Shown here: piece by piece, positions 15,254-24,295 of the stretch
Layout of the letters: every line of letters begins with the position of its first letter
Position numbering within the stretch: the stretch's first letter is position 1
DNA from: Gemmatimonadota bacterium
GTDB lineage: Bacteria; Gemmatimonadota; Gemmatimonadetes; Gemmatimonadales; Gemmatimonadaceae
Assembly: GCA_021324775.1 (NCBI GenBank)
Contig: JAJPIM010000018.1
Location: 1 to 64,000 of the forward strand
DNA: 64,000 nucleotides
Direction: 5' to 3'
Position numbers and translations under genes: made by a program
Notes under the pieces: generated by a model
What the model saw: the letters and a program-made list of their open reading frames with translations, nothing else
Database searches by the model: none
Told to the model about the DNA's origin: nothing

Positions 15254-17146
15254 ATGACATGGATCTCGCGCTGGCACATTGGACGATGGATCCCGCTGCT
15301 CGCAGTCTGGATCGCGGGGGCTGTGTACGTCGGCGCCAGGCTCGACACCAACTGGGTACCGTTGGACGAGGGAACGCTGGCCCAATCGGCCGAGCGCGTG
15401 CTTCAGGGGGAGCTTCCGCAGCGCGACTTCGACGACCCGTATACGGGCGGCCTGGCGCGCTTCGACGCGGTCGTATTCGAGGCGATCGGGACGCGGCTCT
15501 CGTCGCTGCGCGCAGCATTGTTCGCCGTGTTTCTGCTCTGGGTGCCCGCCGTGTACTATATCGCCTCCCGGTTCGCGAAGCCCGTAACGGCGGCCGCGGT
15601 CACGCTGCTCAGCGTCGTGTGGACCCTTCCGACGAATCCGTCGGCGATGCCGTCCTGGTACAACTTGTTTCTGGCGACGTTCGGCATCATGGCGCTCATC
15701 CGGTTCACGGAGACGCGGCTTCGGGGATGGCTCGTTGCGGCGGGCGTCATGGGCGGCCTGTCGGTCCTCGTCAAGATCGTCGGCCTCTACTACATCGCCG
15801 CCGCACTCCTGTTCCTCGCGTTCGACGAGCAGCAGACCGCCGAGGCCGAGCTGCGCGCTCCGCCCATCGTCCGCCGGCCCGTGTATGCGATTCTGTTGAC
15901 GGCCATCGCCGTCGCATTCGTCGTGGCCCTGCTGGCGCTCGTGCGAGCGATCCCGCGCGAGTCCCGCCTGGTCCACTTCGTCATCCCCGGTGCAATGGTG
16001 GCCGGCGTCCTCGTGGCGGCGGAATGGCGGTATCCGAGTCGCAACGATTGGCCCCGTCGCGTGCGACGCCTGGCTGGGCTCATCGGACCCTTCGCACTCG
16101 GTGTGGCCCTGCCAATTGGGCTGTTCCTCGTGCCGTATGCCGCTTCGGACTCATTGGGCGCGCTGCTCCGCGGTGTCTTTGTGGCCCCAGCCAAGCGGTA
16201 CGGGTTCGCGCTCGTCCCGCCGGCGTCGCTGGGTACCCTCGGCGCGGCACTGCCCTGGCTGATACTGCTGGCGCCTCGACAGCCAGCCGCCTGGAGCGTG
16301 CGAACGGCCCGCGCGGCCGCGGTCGCGCTGTGTGTACTCGGCGTCGCGCTCGGCGTTCTGGTTCTGGCGACCATGCACGGCGGCGTGCCCTATGTCGTGG
16401 TCTGGCTGACGATCTGTTACGTGGCGCCCTGCACGGTCGCCGCCGGCTGCGTAGTTGTGTGGCGCTGGCGCCGGCCGCCGGACCATCCATCAGCGACTCG
16501 GCGGGCGCAGCTCTGGTTGCTCATCTGCATGACCGCGATGTGCAGCCTCGTGCAGGTGCCCGTAGCAAGCTGGGGATACATCTTGTATTTCGCGCCACTC
16601 GCGATACTGGCGCTGCTGGGGATCCTGACGTCGCGACCGTCGGGCGCGGGGCTTCGGCCGGCGCTCGTCGCGGGATTCTTCCTGGTGTTCGGCGTGGTGG
16701 CCGTGAACCCAAATCACATCGCGCTCTGGAAGGGCACCTATTTGCCGAGGGAGAGCTGGCGACGCGTGCCGCTGGCCATCGCCCGCACCGGCCTCGAGGT
16801 GAGCGCCATCGACGCCAATCGGTACGAGAGCGTGGTGGGACTCCTGCGCGCGCACAGCCGGCCGGGCGGGTATATCTATGCAACACCCGACTGTCCTGAG
16901 CTCTACTTTCTCGCGGACCGGCGGAATCCGACACGCACCTTGTTTGATTTCTTCGACGATACGGCGGGGCGCGCCGCACGGATCACGCGGGCGTTGGATA
17001 GTCACGGTGTCACCGCGGTGGCGATCAACACGACGCCCGAATTTTCGCCGGCGGTCGATGACGCCTTGCGCGGGTCACTTCACGACCGGTACCCTGATTC
17101 CGCGGTCGTAGGTGAGTTCATCGTGCGGTGGCGTCAAAGCAATTAA
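15254..17146 (+). CDS. GT-C type membrane glycosyltransferase-like protein, paralogue 3
   Basis: A 630-residue third tandem copy with a shorter N-terminus (MTWISRWHIGRWIPLLAVW). The acidic loop LDEGTLAQSAERVLQGELPQRDFDD has Gln where the other two have His before RDF. The C-terminal ATPDCPELYFLADRRNPTRTLFDFFDD is retained. The last 72 bp overlap the 3' end of the convergent acyltransferase gene on the other strand. All three copies have intact frames and motifs, which argues against decay. Function inferred as in paralogue 1, with possible divergence in acceptor or donor. Confidence 0.72.
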   Translation: MTWISRWHIGRWIPLLAVWIAGAVYVGARLDTNWVPLDEGTLAQSAERVLQGELPQRDFDDPYTGGLARFDAVVFEAIGTRLSSLRAALFAVFLLWVPAVYYIASRFAKPVTAAAVTLLSVVWTLPTNPSAMPSWYNLFLATFGIMALIRFTETRLRGWLVAAGVMGGLSVLVKIVGLYYIAAALLFLAFDEQQTAEAELRAPPIVRRPVYAILLTAIAVAFVVALLALVRAIPRESRLVHFVIPGAMVAGVLVAAEWRYPSRNDWPRRVRRLAGLIGPFALGVALPIGLFLVPYAASDSLGALLRGVFVAPAKRYGFALVPPASLGTLGAALPWLILLAPRQPAAWSVRTARAAAVALCVLGVALGVLVLATMHGGVPYVVVWLTICYVAPCTVAAGCVVVWRWRRPPDHPSATRRAQLWLLICMTAMCSLVQVPVASWGYILYFAPLAILALLGILTSRPSGAGLRPALVAGFFLVFGVVAVNPNHIALWKGTYLPRESWRRVPLAIARTGLEVSAIDANRYESVVGLLRAHSRPGGYIYATPDCPELYFLADRRNPTRTLFDFFDDTAGRAARITRALDSHGVTAVAINTTPEFSPAVDDALRGSLHDRYPDSAVVGEFIVRWRQSN

Positions 17147-18271
17147 CGGCATCGTCGGTGCCAGTCTGGGCTTGAGCCGCAGGAAGCGCTTTTCGAACCC
17201 GTGGTAGCTGAGCCACGCCAGCGACGCCGACACCATCACGACCGCGACACCGTGGGCGAAGAGGCCGCCACCCGGCCAGCGGGCAGCTAGGTAGGCGAAT
17301 ACAAAGGGATGGATCACGTAGAGCCCGTAGCTGTACTGGCCGGCGGCGCGAAGAGGCTTCCATTGCAGCCAGCGCGGCTGGCGGGTGGCGGCGATCGTGA
17401 CCAGCCAGCCGAAGATCCACGCGATCGCGGTCAGATTCACCGACACAGGCAGCCGAACGGTGGCGGCAAATCCGCGATCCCCGATCATGAGCGCAACGAC
17501 CACGAGAGCGGTAACCGCCATTGCACCACGGAGCATACGGTCGCCCACTCGGCGCGCCGTGACGGCGGGATCGCCGGGCGCCCGCAGGGCGAGTGCGATC
17601 ACAGAGCCGACGCCCAATGCGTCCAGGCGGCAGGGCGTGAGAAAGTACGTGGCGAGCCACCAGACCCCGGCCCCCGCCAGGGCGATCCGGCACACCAATG
17701 CTCCGGCGATCGCGCAGGCGGCGATCCGCAGCGCCGTCTTGCGCGATGTGTGCCACACGACGAGCGGCCACACCAGATAAAATTGTTCCTCGACCGCCAG
17801 GGACCAGAAGTGGTTCATGTAGTTGAAGTGCGGCGGGATCTGCAGTCCGAGCAGCCAGTTGCTCGTGTAGGTCCAATACCACGCCTGATCACCCGCCAAC
17901 TGCTCGTACACCAGGTCATGCGGCCGATGGATGAGCGGGAGCACGACGAACATCAGGATCAGCACCGCGTAGTAGAGCGGCATGATCCGCAGTATCCTGC
18001 GGATGTAGAACGTGCGCGCGCGGCGGGCGGTCTCTCGCCCATCGAACAGGATCCCGGTGATCAGAAATCCCGAGAGGACGAAGAACAGGTCGACGCCCAT
18101 CCATCCGAATGCCGTCCATTGGCTGGGCCACGCATGGAAGGCCAGCACCAGCACGATTGCGAGCCCCCGAACACCATCCAGGCTGGGCACGTGCCGCGAC
18201 GCGTCGGCCGCTTCCGGACGAGCGGCGGACAGGCGCGGGCTGGGTGTCACTCCAGTCTCAGGGGAATTCAT
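17075..18271 (-). CDS. Acyltransferase 3 family membrane protein (OafA/YrhL-like), copy 1
   Basis: This 398-residue integral membrane O-acyltransferase has about 10 helices. The family signature is clear: RHVPSLDGVRGLAIVLVLAFH (catalytic His in the first helix), a GVDLFFVLSGFLIT segment, RRILRIMPLYY, and FWSLAVEEQFYLVWPL. Such enzymes move acetyl or other acyl groups onto surface sugars. No C-terminal SGNH domain is present, so it is the short form. Its ATG overlaps the stop of copy 2 (ATGA), making it the last gene of a leftward operon, and its 3' end overlaps GT-C paralogue 3 by 72 bp. Acceptor unknown. Confidence 0.9.
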   Translation of the reverse strand: MNSPETGVTPSPRLSAARPEAADASRHVPSLDGVRGLAIVLVLAFHAWPSQWTAFGWMGVDLFFVLSGFLITGILFDGRETARRARTFYIRRILRIMPLYYAVLILMFVVLPLIHRPHDLVYEQLAGDQAWYWTYTSNWLLGLQIPPHFNYMNHFWSLAVEEQFYLVWPLVVWHTSRKTALRIAACAIAGALVCRIALAGAGVWWLATYFLTPCRLDALGVGSVIALALRAPGDPAVTARRVGDRMLRGAMAVTALVVVALMIGDRGFAATVRLPVSVNLTAIAWIFGWLVTIAATRQPRWLQWKPLRAAGQYSYGLYVIHPFVFAYLAARWPGGGLFAHGVAVVMVSASLAWLSYHGFEKRFLRLKPRLAPTMPLIALTPPHDELTYDRGIRVPVVK

Positions 18272-19464
18272 CCGGCCCGCCGGGGGGTCACGGCGCCAAG
18301 AGTGTTCCCGCTGATATGACGGGCCGGAACGTACCCCGACGCCGGTGCCGATGGCGCTAGCCAGTCCTTCAGCCGCAGAAAATGCTGCTCATAGGCGTGA
18401 TAGCTGAACCAGGCCAAAGCGAACGAGACGACTGCGACTCCCGCAGCGAGCCGGAAACTCCCGACAGCCTGCGGCCATCGGCTGTGCGCATATGACAGGA
18501 CGAAAGGATGCAGCACGTAGATGCCGTAGCTGTACAGACCGGCGACCCGCAAAGGCTGGGATCCGAGCACACGCGGACTGTCTGTTGCGGCGTAGAACAC
18601 GGCGAGCCCGCAAAGCCACGCGGCTGCGGCCCACGTCATCATCTCGACGAGTGTCACCCCGAAGCTCCATCCGCCGCGTGCGAGTGCCGCCGATGCGACG
18701 AGGAGGGAGGCGATAGGGACGCCGGCGAGCCAGAGCCGCCTCCCGAGAGTGTCTGCGACAGATCGTGGATCGCCGGGCGCACGAAGTGCCAGCGCGACGA
18801 TCGCGCCGTACCCGAGAAAGTCGAGGCAGTTCGGGGTCAGATAGAGCATCTGAAGCCAGGTCATGCCGGCCGCCATGCAGAGCAGGCGGCCCACAAACGC
18901 CACGAAGACAGCGGCAATTGCGACACGGAGCGAGGTCTCGCGCGAGGCATGCCACACGACGAGGGGCCACAAGAGATAGAACTGCTCTTCGACCGCCAGC
19001 GACCAGAAATGACCCACATAGTCGAAGTGGGTCCGGTTGAATGCCCAGAGCCAATTACTCGTGTACGTCCAGAGCCACGCCTGGTCGCGGCTGATGGCAT
19101 TGTAGATGTCGTCGCGCGGCCGATGAACGAGCGGCAGCGCGACCAGGAGGAGGACCAGTACGCCATAGTAGAGCGGCATGATCCGGAGGGCCCGGCGCAC
19201 ATAGAACGTGCGTGCGCGGTTCGGCGCTCCTTTTCCGTCGGCGAGGATCCCCGTGATGAGGTAACCGGAGAGCGCGAAAAACAGACCCACCCCGAAACCC
19301 CCCGCACTCCGCAGCGCCAGTGGCCCGATGTGAGAGAAGAGCACGACGAGGACGGCCAACCCACGGATGCCGTCGAGTCCTGGCACGTGCCGCGACGCGT
19401 CTGGCGCTGCCGAACCGGCCGGGGAGTGATCTGGGCTGGACGCCGTGTCGCCGGACGAACTCAT
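18268..19464 (-). CDS. Acyltransferase 3 family membrane protein (OafA/YrhL-like), copy 2
   Basis: A paralogue of the following gene, with the same order of motifs: RHVPGLDGIRGLAVLVVLFSH, GVGLFFALSGYLIT, RRALRIMPLYY, FWSLAVEEQFYLLWPL. In the D-L-F-F region the Asp of copy 1 (GVDLFF) is Gly here (GVGLFF), a change worth noting because that segment lines the catalytic face. I chose the ATG at 19464, which overlaps the upstream stop as ATGA and mirrors the copy 1 start. An ATG four codons earlier (19476) is possible. It probably modifies the same glycan at another position or with another acyl group. Confidence 0.88.
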   Translation of the reverse strand: MSSSGDTASSPDHSPAGSAAPDASRHVPGLDGIRGLAVLVVLFSHIGPLALRSAGGFGVGLFFALSGYLITGILADGKGAPNRARTFYVRRALRIMPLYYGVLVLLLVALPLVHRPRDDIYNAISRDQAWLWTYTSNWLWAFNRTHFDYVGHFWSLAVEEQFYLLWPLVVWHASRETSLRVAIAAVFVAFVGRLLCMAAGMTWLQMLYLTPNCLDFLGYGAIVALALRAPGDPRSVADTLGRRLWLAGVPIASLLVASAALARGGWSFGVTLVEMMTWAAAAWLCGLAVFYAATDSPRVLGSQPLRVAGLYSYGIYVLHPFVLSYAHSRWPQAVGSFRLAAGVAVVSFALAWFSYHAYEQHFLRLKDWLAPSAPASGYVPARHISGNTLGAVTPRRAG

Positions 19465-21203
19465 CCGGTTCCCCATCGAGGGGTCGCGACACCCACCGTG
19501 AAGCGTGTCCTAACCCGCCGTTTTGTACTGCCGTTGCTTGGCACTGCGGTCGCGAGGGGCGGGATCGCGAGGGGGTGGCACGACGCTGACAGCGAGGTCA
19601 ACGGCTCGAGGGTGGGGCCGCGCGAGTCGTCTCGCTGGAAGAGCACCGCCGTGGAGTCGCAATAGACCGGATGCCATCCCGCCTCGTGCGCGAGCGCGTC
19701 GGCCAGGGGCGAGACCGTCTGGATCAGAGCGAGATCGATCCGCCACGCGTCGAGCTTTCGTCGCCATCCCGGCTCCACCCCGAGGATCGCGCTGTACTCT
19801 CGCGTGATCGAGTCGCCGTAGAAGTCGGTCTGGCCATCGATGAAGACACGCTGCTCGGGCCACGCGTAGAGGATGTATCCACCCCATGTGAACTCGTGGA
19901 ACATCCGCCCGCCCAGCCGGGCCTCTCGTGCCGCCGCGACAGCACGGACCGGGAACACGGCCGGATTGAACGTCGTTGGAAATAACGTGGACCCGGCGGC
20001 AAACTGGTCCGCGGGTTGGACGGTAGCGCTCGTCGTCCGTGCCAGCACGAACATCGCGACGATGGCGGCGGCCGGCCATCCAGGCGTGAGACGCGCTGGA
20101 TTCATGCCACGCATCGGGCGTCCAAGCCGTCCTCGTGACCAACCGGGGACCCACGTCGCCAGCGCACGCTCGAGCTCCTGGGCGACCAACGGCAGCGCCA
20201 CGACGCCGAACAGCGGTATGTTGCGACCCGACATCAGCGAGAACGCGAGATTGATCGCCACCACTCCGAGTGTCGGGAATGACGCCCGGCGGGGGAGGAT
20301 CGCCAGCGTGGTGGTGGCGGCAACGATGGCGATGAGCGCGAACCGCGCAACGTGGAAATCGGGCGACATGTACTCCTGTGTGTTGTTGACCAGGTATGTG
20401 TCGCCGAGATAGCCCAGCGTATGGGCATAGAGGCGCGGCCCGCTGGGCGTCAGCAGCGCGGCAAACGCGGCGGCGGCGAGCATCGCGCCGTGCCGCACAA
20501 GAGCGCCGCGCCAGACCGTCACGTCAGGCGCTGCCGCATAGAGCATCTCGACACGATCGCCCACCACGACCACAGCCAGGACAAAAAGACCGTAGAGGAA
20601 TCCGCCGTGGAGGTTCGCCCAGACGGCGAACAGCGGGATCATGGGCCACGCCGCCGACCAGGCGGCGCGTGGTGAATCATTGAGGCGCGGATCGGCTCCG
20701 CGATCGATGAGCGCCATCAGCGCCGCGGCGCCGAGCAGCGTCCAGAGGTGCGGCCGGGCATGCCAGTGCTCGGACCCGATCGCCAAGGCCAGCAGCAACG
20801 TCGGTATCGCCACGATCGGAGCGACGCCGCGCCGAACGAGCGTTCGGGTCACGAGCGCATAGGTGACGGCGAGGATGGCACCGGTGAGTACGATCAGTCC
20901 TGGAAGCCCGGCCATGCGTACGCTCAGAGCGTCGGCCACTTCGCTCAACCACTCGTACGGGACGAACGGCGCGCCGGCCTTGGTGAACGAGAACGGGTCG
21001 TGATAGAACAGCCCCGACCGGAGAATCGTCTCGCCCACTCGGATGTGACGGGCGGGGTCGCCATCCAGCGACAGCCAGCGACGACCAAGCCCGATGGGCA
21101 GGGCCACGGCGAGCAGAATGGCGACCAGTTCCGGTAATGTCGGGGCGACGCCAAGGCGAATGCCGGTGGCGGTGTTGTCGGCGCGCGCGCGAGATGCGGC
21201 CAC
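19461..21203 (-). CDS. Large polytopic membrane protein, GT-C-like, unknown function
   Basis: The protein has 580 residues from a GTG start, with about 11 hydrophobic helices over the first 420 residues and a soluble C-terminal part. The loop after the first helix reads SLDGDPARHIRVGETILRSG...HDPFSFT, with acidic residues where GT-C enzymes place their catalytic base. The C-terminal region contains WGGYILYAWPEQRVFIDGQTDFYG, a pattern in an uncharacterised family of bacterial membrane proteins. A role in glycan or lipid-linked sugar transfer is likely from fold and neighbours but not demonstrated. It overlaps acyltransferase copy 2 by 4 bp and lies 93 bp downstream of the HTTM gene. Confidence 0.6.
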   Translation of the reverse strand: MAASRARADNTATGIRLGVAPTLPELVAILLAVALPIGLGRRWLSLDGDPARHIRVGETILRSGLFYHDPFSFTKAGAPFVPYEWLSEVADALSVRMAGLPGLIVLTGAILAVTYALVTRTLVRRGVAPIVAIPTLLLALAIGSEHWHARPHLWTLLGAAALMALIDRGADPRLNDSPRAAWSAAWPMIPLFAVWANLHGGFLYGLFVLAVVVVGDRVEMLYAAAPDVTVWRGALVRHGAMLAAAAFAALLTPSGPRLYAHTLGYLGDTYLVNNTQEYMSPDFHVARFALIAIVAATTTLAILPRRASFPTLGVVAINLAFSLMSGRNIPLFGVVALPLVAQELERALATWVPGWSRGRLGRPMRGMNPARLTPGWPAAAIVAMFVLARTTSATVQPADQFAAGSTLFPTTFNPAVFPVRAVAAAREARLGGRMFHEFTWGGYILYAWPEQRVFIDGQTDFYGDSITREYSAILGVEPGWRRKLDAWRIDLALIQTVSPLADALAHEAGWHPVYCDSTAVLFQRDDSRGPTLEPLTSLSASCHPLAIPPLATAVPSNGSTKRRVRTRFTVGVATPRWGTG

Positions 21204-21296: not shown

Positions 21297-22535
21297 CTAG
21301 CCCGCAGTGGACGCCGCACCAGACGGGTGCCGGGCCGCCCGGTTGAAGACCGAGAGCGGTGCCAGTATCCAGAGGACCGGCACGACTGGCGCGATCGCGA
21401 CAAGTGCCGCGAATCCCGACCGCAGCCCACCCGGCGTTTGCACCAGAAATCGCCCCTTCCCCACCGATGGCGAGCGGCCCGCGCCGGGCGGCCGGGCGGC
21501 CGGGGAGCGGGTGTCCACCAGTTGCAACCGTCCGAAAATGTCGACGGCGCGCAGGACGTCGGCCGTCCGCGCGGACGGGGTGAGCAACGGGTCGTACAAC
21601 ACGACCTTTACCTCACCGAGCCACGGCGTGATGCGCTCCCGGATGCGAGCCCAGAATCGAGCGAGGTCTTCCGGGTAAACGAAGGTGATGAGCGTGGACA
21701 CCGTGATCCACTCGAACATCGGGATGTTCATCGAGTACTCGATGCCCGCATGCAGACAGATGACCACAATCATCACGTAGTAGCGAAGGTCGCGCAGCCA
21801 GATCAGGACCGCGGCGGAAAACTCGGTGACCAGCGTGCCCCACGTCGCGAGCCGGATGAAGGCCCGGTTGTATACCAGAAAGTCCGGGATCGGGAAGCGC
21901 GCGAACTCGCGCATCCGCAACGCATAGTACACGGACGTCCCGTTGACCCACTTCGGCCCGAAGCTCTTCCACCAGACGGTCGTGAGGTACACGAGCGATG
22001 TCTGGATCTGAATCAGCCGTTGCGCCCATGGCATGTATTGGCGTACGGCGACGCCTTCCTTGCCGCGCCAGATCCGGATCAGCCGGTCGACCGAGAACGC
22101 GGCCCCAGCCGGCGCGAACAGCAGGAAGAAGCCGCTCACCCGCAGCAGCGTGTCGCCGCTGTTGAGAATGTACGGGTCGCGGGATTGCATCGACGCCAGG
22201 CCCAGATAGAGCAGGAACATGCTCGTCCGCGTCATGAATCCCAGTATGACGGCCACCGACAGGAGCAGGAATCCCCAGAAAAACACGTTGATCGCGAACT
22301 CCGTCTGCGGGATGAGCGGAAGCAGATTGATTCGCGTTGAGGGATGCAATCGCTGGACGGTGGCCACACTCACGATGGCGTGCGGGCCGTACCAGGACAT
22401 CCAATCCGGCGCCAGCAAGAGGAGATTGAAGAGATTCATGATGCCGTACAGAATGCGATAGAGCGCCACCGGCGCTGGCGATGCCGGCTCGAAGAAGAAC
22501 GCATTCCACTTTCGGAACAGCGAGGCGACGGTCAT
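21297..22535 (-). CDS. HTTM-domain protein with degenerate C-terminal DCC-like domain
   Basis: This 412-residue protein has the horizontally transferred transmembrane (HTTM, gamma-carboxylase-like) helix bundle: ALYRILYGIMNLFNLLL near the start, a conserved SGDTLLRVSGFFLLFAPAG, WAQRLIQIQTSLVYLTTVWWKSFGPKWVNG and the histidine in CLHAGIEYSMNI. After the last helices, residues about 300-340 (VVLYDPLLTPSARTADVLRA) align with the DCC/DUF393 thiol-oxidoreductase start (VLYDGDCPLC), but the catalytic DCxxC cysteines are absent. A membrane helix and short tail close the protein. The ATG at 22535 overlaps the upstream stop (ATGA). HTTM-DCC fusions are known. A DCC part without cysteines is unusual. 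Confidence 0.8.
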   Translation of the reverse strand: MTVASLFRKWNAFFFEPASPAPVALYRILYGIMNLFNLLLLAPDWMSWYGPHAIVSVATVQRLHPSTRINLLPLIPQTEFAINVFFWGFLLLSVAVILGFMTRTSMFLLYLGLASMQSRDPYILNSGDTLLRVSGFFLLFAPAGAAFSVDRLIRIWRGKEGVAVRQYMPWAQRLIQIQTSLVYLTTVWWKSFGPKWVNGTSVYYALRMREFARFPIPDFLVYNRAFIRLATWGTLVTEFSAAVLIWLRDLRYYVMIVVICLHAGIEYSMNIPMFEWITVSTLITFVYPEDLARFWARIRERITPWLGEVKVVLYDPLLTPSARTADVLRAVDIFGRLQLVDTRSPAARPPGAGRSPSVGKGRFLVQTPGGLRSGFAALVAIAPVVPVLWILAPLSVFNRAARHPSGAASTAG

Positions 22536-23146
22536 CGGAGGTCGGCCGGCTTGACGGGATACGTGTAGAACAGGGCGTGCTGCCACTTCAACGGCTCTTT
22601 GGGCGGACCGGAATCGATCGGCGAAATCATCGACCAGTATCGCACGAACCTGACGGTGTCCGGTGGCACGCCCAGCGTGTCATTGACCCGGGCGACGTAG
22701 CGAGCCGCATCCGGCCAGATCGCGTGCCCCGATTCGGGCCGCACGTTGTCGTTCGCCCACTTCCGGAACCGTTCGATGGTGTAGCGCCGGAAATAGCCGT
22801 AGTCCGCGGGGATGGGAAACTTCCATTCCCTCGTCCGTCCGTCCCGGTAGTGGATCTCCGCCTGCAGGTACGTGTCGGACGATGGCGGGTTGGGCGAGAA
22901 CATGGGCCACGACTGCGAGAGGCCGACGATGCGCATATACGGGGCGACGACGATTTTCGCGAGCGTGAGAAGACCCCGTCCAGGTGGAACCGCGGTGATC
23001 ACCAGCGCGAAGAGCTGAAACATGAGGAAGCCCGTGATCATCGCCTTCCTGGGTGTCAGCTCGGGGGGTTGCACAGGCGGTTGCACAGGCGGTTGCACGG
23101 GCGGTCCCCCGGGTGGGGTGCCGTCAGGCACAGATTCACTCGGCAT
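22532..23146 (-). CDS. HTTM-associated membrane-anchored protein
   Basis: The protein has 204 residues. An N-terminal Pro/Gln segment with three PPVQ repeats is followed by one membrane helix (about 35-55, MITGFLMFQLFALVITAVP) and a soluble region with SQSWPMFSPNPPSSDTYLQAEIHYRDGRTREW. The W-x-MF-x-PNP motif marks small proteins often encoded directly beside HTTM proteins, as here with a 4-bp overlap. It probably forms a complex with the HTTM protein. Biochemical function is unknown. The ribosome site is weak. It is the second gene of the leftward cluster. Confidence 0.7.
   Translation of the reverse strand: MPSESVPDGTPPGGPPVQPPVQPPVQPPELTPRKAMITGFLMFQLFALVITAVPPGRGLLTLAKIVVAPYMRIVGLSQSWPMFSPNPPSSDTYLQAEIHYRDGRTREWKFPIPADYGYFRRYTIERFRKWANDNVRPESGHAIWPDAARYVARVNDTLGVPPDTVRFVRYWSMISPIDSGPPKEPLKWQHALFYTYPVKPADLR
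23069..23106 (-). repeat. Three 12-bp tandem repeats coding PPVQ
   Basis: Three near-identical units of the form TTGCACAGGCGG (plus strand) near the 5' end of the HTTM-partner gene, encoding the cytoplasmic proline-rich tail. Copy changes would keep the frame. Confidence 0.8.
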
Positions 23147-23248: not shown

Positions 23249-24295
23249 TTAGATGTCGTCGATGGTCGTCCACTCGTTCGGACGGCGGAGCACCATGATC
23301 AGGCACGGCAGATAGAGACACAGCACCATGGCGGTGCCCGTGTGCTGTGTCAGCTCGGGGAACAGGGTGTTGAGCGCGGCGTAATGCAGTTGCACAGCAT
23401 AGGGAATGAAGGAGAGCATGGCGAGCAGGATCGTCTCCGTCCGGCTCCGGGCCACGAGGAAGAGCGGGAGGGCGGCCTGGAGGATCATCGACTGCGGCAC
23501 GCTGCCCATGATCACCAGGAGACGCGCGTCGGCGCGCCGCCATTTGGCGAGCGCGGCCAGCACGAGAAAGCCGCCGGGGCGCAGGATCGGCCCCGCGAGA
23601 TGCACGCCCGCGCGCAATGCTTCCCGCCACTCCGGGATCCACCCCGGCCGCACGATCAGACTGGCGACGCAGAGCAGCGCCGCGATCCCGATGCCGACGT
23701 ACGTGGCGCGCCGGCGCGGAAGCCCGCTGGCGAGCGCCAAGCCGACATTGGGCTTGGCGAGGTACGCCGCGCACGCGCCGGGTGTGAGCGCGGCGGCGAC
23801 CAGGAGTGGCTCCCAGGCCCCGGCCGCGATCGAGCCGAGAAACGCCGCGCTGGCGAGCACCGCGAGACGCCACAGATCGCGCCGCGTCAGCACGTACGCC
23901 AGCCACGCGCTGGACCCCCCGAGGAACACCGGCCGGAACACCTCGAGCGGCAACACCGTGAACGGCAGGGTCAGGATCAGCGCCGGGAGGGGGTAGAACA
24001 ACGGCCACGGCCAGTGCATGAACGTCCCGTGTGGTCCGATCGCGGTATACGGGTTGTCGCCTCGGAGCAGGGTCCACGCGCCAGCCCACGATTGCACGAT
24101 ATCGGCGCCCCATTGGGGGTACTCGTGTTCCCGGGCGAAGACGTAGCCCGCCACGACGAGCCCCATGCACAACGCCGCCACGATTCGCGTCCGCCGCGAG
24201 GGGGGTATGGCGGTGTCGTCCGCGACGGCGGCGGCCGGCAGGATCGACTCGGCGCGCGGCATCCAGGTGCGAACGGCGGCGAGATCCGGGGCCAT
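23249..24295 (-). CDS. GT87/DUF2029-like polytopic membrane protein
   Basis: The protein has 348 residues with about 9-10 helices. After the first helix comes the motif WAGAWTLLRGDNPYTAIGPHG and a Pro/Tyr-rich FYPLPALILTLPFTVLP, the pattern of GT87 (DUF2029) mannosyltransferase-like proteins (GxNPY and YPPL). The C-terminal YLPCLIMVLRRPNEW repeats in the paralogue at 44354-45406 (YLPALLIVLRRPNVG). It heads the leftward cluster (GT87-like, HTTM partner, HTTM, membrane protein, two acyltransferases). It may use a polyprenyl-phosphate sugar in the periplasm, which is inference from the family. An ATG 11 codons in is an alternative start. Confidence 0.65.
   Translation of the reverse strand: MAPDLAAVRTWMPRAESILPAAAVADDTAIPPSRRTRIVAALCMGLVVAGYVFAREHEYPQWGADIVQSWAGAWTLLRGDNPYTAIGPHGTFMHWPWPLFYPLPALILTLPFTVLPLEVFRPVFLGGSSAWLAYVLTRRDLWRLAVLASAAFLGSIAAGAWEPLLVAAALTPGACAAYLAKPNVGLALASGLPRRRATYVGIGIAALLCVASLIVRPGWIPEWREALRAGVHLAGPILRPGGFLVLAALAKWRRADARLLVIMGSVPQSMILQAALPLFLVARSRTETILLAMLSFIPYAVQLHYAALNTLFPELTQHTGTAMVLCLYLPCLIMVLRRPNEWTTIDDI

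Follow-up and report, generated by a model that had tools for sequence, protein, structure and literature searches.

Results

The locus and its HTTM core

The gene under study lies at positions 21297..22535 on the minus strand of the window, the whole stretch of 64,000 nucleotides from a Gemmatimonadota bacterium that was analyzed here (contig JAJPIM010000018.1, positions 1 to 64,000). Its open frame encodes 412 amino acids plus stop, comprising an HTTM domain (PF05090; residues 15–288, 21672..22493, minus strand) followed by a cysteine-less, DCC/DUF393-derived C-terminal domain, here called the tail (residues 309–394, 21354..21611, minus strand), in which L318 and S321 occupy the former cysteine positions and the C-terminal helix and end are missing. 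Directly upstream, a partner gene (22532..23146, minus strand) encodes a small DUF5819/SdpA-like protein, with a 4-base overlap between its stop and the HTTM start. Farther upstream, positions 23249–24295 encode a hydrophobic protein matched by neither Pfam nor NCBIfam, homologs of which are found at the same place in genomes G002 and G001 (79% and 55% identity, respectively). On the downstream side, positions 17075–19476 contain a pair of neighboring Acyl_transf_3 (PF01757) genes for membrane acyltransferases, on the same strand as the HTTM gene.

The full protein exceeded the Pfam gathering score for PF05090 (56.8 bits compared to a cut-off of 27.7, E 3.3e-15), and in a whole-protein search its only match in its own genome was itself. 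A profile of 13 HTTM domains, including that of the window, matched the vitamin K-dependent gamma-carboxylase GGCX at E 1.6e-17. In the profile alignment, K190, W196, H262 and F274 of the window protein align with K218, W223, H287 and F299 of GGCX (numbers counted by hand along the printed alignment, as chain number plus 31), and all four residues are invariant in the 13 HTTM rows. K190 is thus found at the position of the GGCX catalytic base. K218 is described as the base deprotonating vitamin K hydroquinone, and W223, F299 and H160 are listed among the residues around the naphthoquinone ring (PMC12589487). H160 of GGCX also coordinates the side chain of the Glu substrate; by hand count, the HTTM profile has a glycine at this place. 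Since the K218 and quinone-pocket residues are aligned but the H160 place is a glycine, the alignment makes a quinone-linked reaction of the HTTM core plausible and leaves Glu carboxylation itself doubtful.

A phmmer search of the PDB with the full protein returned no relative up to E 10. With the full-length structural model, whose mean pLDDT is only 53, the best PDB match was still GGCX (E 2.1e-6). The bacterial membrane protein encoded here is a distant relative of the vitamin K-dependent carboxylase. Among the viral contigs searched, there was no relative of the window protein or of profile A6.

The partner gene and the DCC neighborhood

Inspected by eye, the partner protein has one hydrophobic segment and an FSPNP motif. 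It scored 20 bits against PF19136 (DUF5819), below the cut-off of 27.1, while the partners from Virgibacillus and from locus L009 scored 94.5 and 21.8, respectively; an iterated profile joins both with the window partner. This profile, seeded with the window and L009 partners, was found in 17 of the 37 loci given. The partner gene immediately precedes HTTM in each of the four orthologs, in L008–L011, L081–L082, L209, L211 and L213, and on the Virgibacillus plasmid (L203); the profile also matches in L083, L084 and L210. No partner was found with fusions of the G033/G048/G331/G337 type in the ~0.5 to 1 kb of upstream sequence in view. A small partner and an HTTM protein encoded in one operon are described for sdpABC and yitPOM of Bacillus subtilis (PMC6818787).

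In a Bdellovibrionales record (L009:3019-4879), a separate cysteine-bearing DCC gene is followed by an SdpA/DUF5819-like gene and then by an HTTM gene. This gene row and the HTTM–DCC fusions described below tie the DCC domain to the partner–HTTM module: several lineages have the fusion, and one record has DCC as a neighbor. Among viral contigs, canonical DCC profile A2 matched one locus (L102) and DCC profile A5 matched two (L223 and L224). In L102 (L102:104-2366, an IMG/VR contig), a DCC gene with the cysteine pair overlaps the end of a 619-residue frame unnamed by Pfam. This large frame was first taken as HTTM and was then dropped, as Pfam gives only a sub-threshold DoxD match.

Ancestry of the C-terminal domain

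Pfam did not call a DCC domain in the full protein. When the window tail was scanned alone, PF04134 (DCC1-like) matched at E 0.17 (13.6 bits), and the orthologous tail of G009 matched at E 5.6e-4 (21.6 bits), both below the cut-off of 27.8; the tails of G001 and G002 gave no match, and neither did the window's genome at E 0.001. We then relied on profile A1, which was built from the four cysteine-less tails (window, G001, G002 and G009) and matched 14 of the 395 phylum genomes searched at E 0.001. The best non-orthologous matches were the C-terminal parts of proteins in G033 (4e-13), G048 (3.5e-12), G331 (6.6e-10) and G337 (7e-10), in which an HTTM-like membrane part is followed by VYDGxCPLC or IYDGxCPLC. 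HTTM scored over the Pfam cut-off in the G033 and G337 proteins. It was not called by Pfam in the G048 protein, and the G331 protein (L070) was absent among the Pfam HTTM matches; these two were assigned by our own HTTM profile (E 1.4e-6 and 1.2e-8, respectively) and by blastp with the window protein (E 1.2e-13 and 7.7e-7). The remaining six A1 matches comprised four DCC proteins that stand alone and have the pair (L072, L073, L074 and L077) and two apparently unrelated frames (L075 and L076), one with an internal stop.

Aligned by hhalign, A1 matched A2 at E 1.5e-14 over 85 columns, and the tail is homologous over about the first 89 of the 112 positions of A2. In a control with 5,490 open frames, 30 scored E < 1e-3 with A1 in the forward direction and none when reversed, and the best E among 50 column-shuffled profiles was 0.015, short of 1e-3. 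The window tail by itself matched L069 at E 1e-4 (database size set to 2000). These profile comparisons give good support to a DCC origin of the tail. The original prediction of an HTTM protein with a DCC-like domain is borne out by the PF05090 score and the A1–A2 homology, and so is its reading of the tail: the string it quoted, VVLYDPLLTPSARTADVL, sits at residues 311–328, and the tail contains no cysteine. HTTM–DCC fusions, which it took to be known, are indeed present in annotation (for example, WP_121606025.1).

The best-scoring relatives outside the window's own family of genomes were HTTM–DCC fusions with an intact YDGxCxxC. A second tail profile, A3 (the four tails plus that of L091), was searched against 201 genomes from the phylum of L011, a Fimbriimonadia record, and hence presumably Armatimonadota; nine genomes matched, including G561, G489 and G499 (L209, L211 and L213). 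These three proteins carry VIYDGECDFC or LVYDGECDFC, and by blastp they align in full with window residues 3–6 to 391–394 at 33–36% identity (query residues 6–394 for L211 and L209 and 3–391 for L213). L211 reached E 3e-67 with 35% identity across both domains, and the Virgibacillus fusion L203 aligned over residues 24–394 at E 2e-29. Both domains were over the Pfam cut-off in L209, L213 and L203. L211 and L209 outscored the tail-less HTTM relatives L008–L011, and L213 (187 bits) tied with L010 (187). A tail search of 58 genomes of the L008 phylum matched five, in frames of 138–151 residues that have the pair and are not fusions.

A tree of 23 rows was built on HTTM rather than on the short tail. 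The four cysteine-less orthologs form one clade (96/99), whose nearest neighbor is the three Armatimonadota fusions (64/90, weakly supported); support is weak for 10 of the 20 inner branches, and L091 and L203 sit on long ones. That cysteines were lost and not gained is read from the near-universal presence of the pair in DCC domains and not from the tree alone. A further cysteine pair at the very C terminus (PCRAEAC, CNEKTC type) is present in L068:1390-2709, L069:514-1860, L070:1342-2724 and L203:2447-3787; neither the window clade nor the three Armatimonadota fusions have this extra pair.

Loss of the cysteine pair

Whole-protein orthologs were found in 4 of the 179 genomes of the family (G000, G001, G002 and G009), and the other three are 48–57% identical to the window protein. 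Both active-site cysteines are gone in all four, which span two genera. In place of the conserved Asp-x-x-Cys-x-x-Cys of DCC domains, the window protein has L318 and S321 at the cysteine positions; the first column reads L, L, S and V and the second S, S, G and A (window, G002, G009 and G001, respectively), and an active-site thiol is absent from the tail sequence. Cysteines elsewhere are C260 in the window protein, its only one and located in the HTTM part, residues 112 and 134 in G002, 102, 119 and 344 in G009, and 95, 112, 322 and 336 in G001; a shared new pair was looked for in the four orthologs and none was seen. A signal of replacement chemistry was likewise looked for at the two former cysteine columns of the four orthologs and was not found, the variable residues there arguing against it.

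About 20 tail residues are invariant in the four orthologs, including D315, R323, D332 and W389 (numbers converted from alignment positions). All four tails keep the Asp of YDG, an Arg two places behind the second cysteine position, an Asp and an Arg-Leu before the second strand, and a Leu-Trp motif. The middle of the tail is shortened, and the last helix and basic end, of the type GxRVYxWVxxNR in relatives, are missing.

Identity among the orthologs is 32–50% in the tail compared to 54–62% in the HTTM part. The pattern differs in fusions that have the cysteines: those of G033, G337, G048 and G331 conserve the tail better than HTTM in six of six pairs, and the three Armatimonadota fusion pairs show about equal identity in the two parts, 0.5 to 4 points less in the tail. 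Among the cysteine-less tails, all six pairs show fewer changes at first and second codon positions than at third positions, and in all four orthologs the reading frames are open and the tails are of about the same length. Because third codon positions change most, yet the tail changes faster than HTTM, the tail appears to be under selection that is weaker than before. G002 also has a stand-alone cysteine-bearing DCC gene (L100, G002:C43:10359-10670), on the other strand ~5 kb from its HTTM gene.

To place this loss among DCC domains at large, 133 PF04134 matches were read in 151 genomes of the order. The pair was kept in 132, and the remaining one (L199) is cut off by a contig end; the survey leans to canonical members because a cysteine-less domain scores lower, the tails of G000, G001 and G002 having missed E 0.001 and that of G009 not being among the matches listed. 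The survey of HTTM fusions for cysteine loss, which had been put forward as a check, did turn up losses: among those read with DCC behind an HTTM or HTTM-like part in one frame, the pair is kept in eleven and lost in five. The keepers include proteins with HTTM over the Pfam cut-off (L068, L092, L209, L210, L213 and L203), below it (L060 and L096) or recognized by our own profile only (L069 and L070); L211 was counted without a Pfam scan of its own, being 88.6% identical to L209 in the HTTM part. L215 (two in-frame stops) and L217 (one) were set aside, and L212, cut by a contig end, was not counted as a fusion.

The five fusions without the pair are the four orthologs and a protein of G331 (L091:1348-2427, G331:C16) whose tail reads VIWDDRSEVWRRRISLLRKVDLFGALRF. 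L091 has an HTTM score of 56 bits and no Pfam DCC call, and its tail matched a mixed DCC profile at 1.2e-7. Its genome belongs to a different family of the class, and no other row exceeds 23% identity to its HTTM part, so L091 probably represents a second, independent cysteine loss, with an unsure placement in the tree. The L091 tail contains the motif WDDRSEVWRR, and the cysteine-bearing fusion L070 is encoded in the same genome.

Predicted fold and topology

In the PDB, the DCC profiles found no credible sequence relative (four matches at E 0.043–1.8 for A2 and one at 1.1 for A5). The tail was modeled from a thin alignment of four rows, three of which are distant DCC proteins; the viral loci L102 and L223 were used only as rows for this model, and L224 was not used. 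The predicted order of elements is beta-alpha-beta-beta-beta-alpha-alpha, at a pLDDT of 62 (41–44 in the other four models). The PDB matches listed for the tail were mostly thioredoxin, glutaredoxin and GST-type thioredoxin folds and were weak, with a best Foldseek E of 0.15 and none <0.001, and a Z of at most 5.9 (3.0 Å over 69 residues). Thioredoxins and glutaredoxins also made up most of the named matches among viral models (best E 1.7e-3). The full-length model gives pLDDT values below 50 to most of the tail. The outcome named by the original prediction as its refutation, a fold other than a thioredoxin-like one, did not arise, since the element order is as expected and the matches are mostly thioredoxin-fold; but with a pLDDT of 62 the model is of modest confidence, and the DCC rows in the alignment make it a support and not an independent test.

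Topology was considered as N-in with eight helices, taken from the low-confidence full-length model. Lys and Arg make up 11 of 72 residues in the would-be cytoplasmic loops compared to 7 of 83 in the others, a weak signal, and the denser loops include the one leading to the tail. Such a bias would point to a cytoplasmic tail, with the K190 site on the other side of the membrane.

Discussion

HTTM, DCC and the HTTM–DCC fusion are already known in annotation. In the titles and abstract openings of open-licence papers that were searched, we found no description of a cysteine-less DCC clade on HTTM and none of a function for bacterial HTTM–DCC fusions. Dead thioredoxin-fold domains are common in general.

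We propose, with a probability of roughly 0.65, that the tail is a redox-dead DCC domain kept as a scaffold, the ancestral thiol redox step having been lost or being done by another protein. The protein belongs to a two-gene module, in which a small SdpA/DUF5819-like protein comes first and the HTTM membrane protein second. Several lineages of the module also carry DCC, and the ancestral DCC would have served a thiol redox step there. In the window clade, the fused domain lost both active-site cysteines, and presumably its thiol activity with them, together with the C-terminal helix. The thioredoxin-like core would have stayed under weakened selection as a noncatalytic scaffold, probably on the cytoplasmic side, where it could hold the HTTM core together or dock the partner or a substrate. 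The HTTM core probably still performs quinone-linked, carboxylase-like chemistry at the outer face; any thiol redox step would then come from another protein or have become dispensable.

One rival reading is that the resemblance to DCC arose by chance in a GC-rich tail, and it draws on the silence of Pfam for the full protein and on the E of 0.17 for the window tail alone. We regard it as extremely improbable in view of the highly significant profile matches, the clean reversed and shuffled controls and the position of the tail, which sits behind HTTM at the same place as in true fusions. Nor do we expect that the domain has acquired a new active site or uses the old groove to bind a ligand, as thioredoxin-fold domains without thiols (GST and SspA/MglA types) do. 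GST-like and SspA/MglA thioredoxin-fold domains do rank beside thioredoxins among the weak structural matches, but matches at Z 5–6 are not specific, and neither former cysteine position holds a conserved nucleophile in the four orthologs, so such chemistry is improbable. The original prediction had left the choice between a structural role and other chemistry; of the two, the structural role fits better, since the former cysteine positions are not conserved in the four orthologs, unlike a substitute active site.

The main rival to the scaffold reading is decay in progress, in which a DCC domain without a job once its cysteines had gone is eroding and has no present function. The faster change of the tail relative to HTTM, seen among the compared groups only in the window clade, counts against a scaffold and also fits slow decay, as do the lost C-terminal helix, the shortened middle and the variable former active site. 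The tail-less HTTM relatives L008–L011, each with a partner gene, further show that the module can do without the domain. A useless tail, however, should have gathered stops or vanished in some orthologs, whereas in the four orthologs, which come from two genera, the frame has stayed open, the length is similar and some 20 tail residues are invariant. We accordingly rate decay as rather unlikely, though a good deal less so than a new chemistry.

Returning to the scaffold reading, a bolder version of it would be that HTTM membrane enzymes have at least twice retained a catalytically dead DCC for allostery or docking. This is a tentative idea that we would not yet favor. If true, DCC would have a general non-redox role for HTTM enzymes, from which the thiol chemistry is removable. 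Fused cysteine-bearing DCC, separate DCC, fused cysteine-less DCC and no DCC at all form a natural series of modules, with which one can ask directly if HTTM chemistry needs a redox step. In the animal relative GGCX, HTTM chemistry is tied to vitamin K redox cycling.

Compared with the DCC1-like family PF04134 (formerly DUF393), the window tail is homologous but is without the cysteine pair and the last helix and scores below the Pfam cut-off. The arrangement of a small partner and an HTTM protein resembles that of SdpA and SdpB of B. subtilis; however, the window protein scored 33.1 bits against the SdpB model TIGR04033, far below the cut-off of 178.4, and an SdpC-like gene as in sdpABC was not recognized beside the window pair, for which no dedicated search was made. 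WP_121606025.1 (L203, plasmid of Virgibacillus sp. Bac332) shares with the window protein the order HTTM then DCC, with 33.2 and 53.1 bits over the respective cut-offs, and a related upstream partner. It is annotated as a 'DCC1-like thiol-disulfide oxidoreductase family protein' and lies behind a DUF5819 gene, but reads VLYDGWCPFC and runs on to a complete C-terminal end that contains a second pair of cysteines, both features being absent from the window protein. GGCX (for example, PDB 9wfn and 9l20) shares HTTM homology, a fold match and identical residues at K218, W223 and F299, but has ~700 or more residues, compared to the 412 of the window protein with its DCC-derived tail and its glycine at the H160 place.
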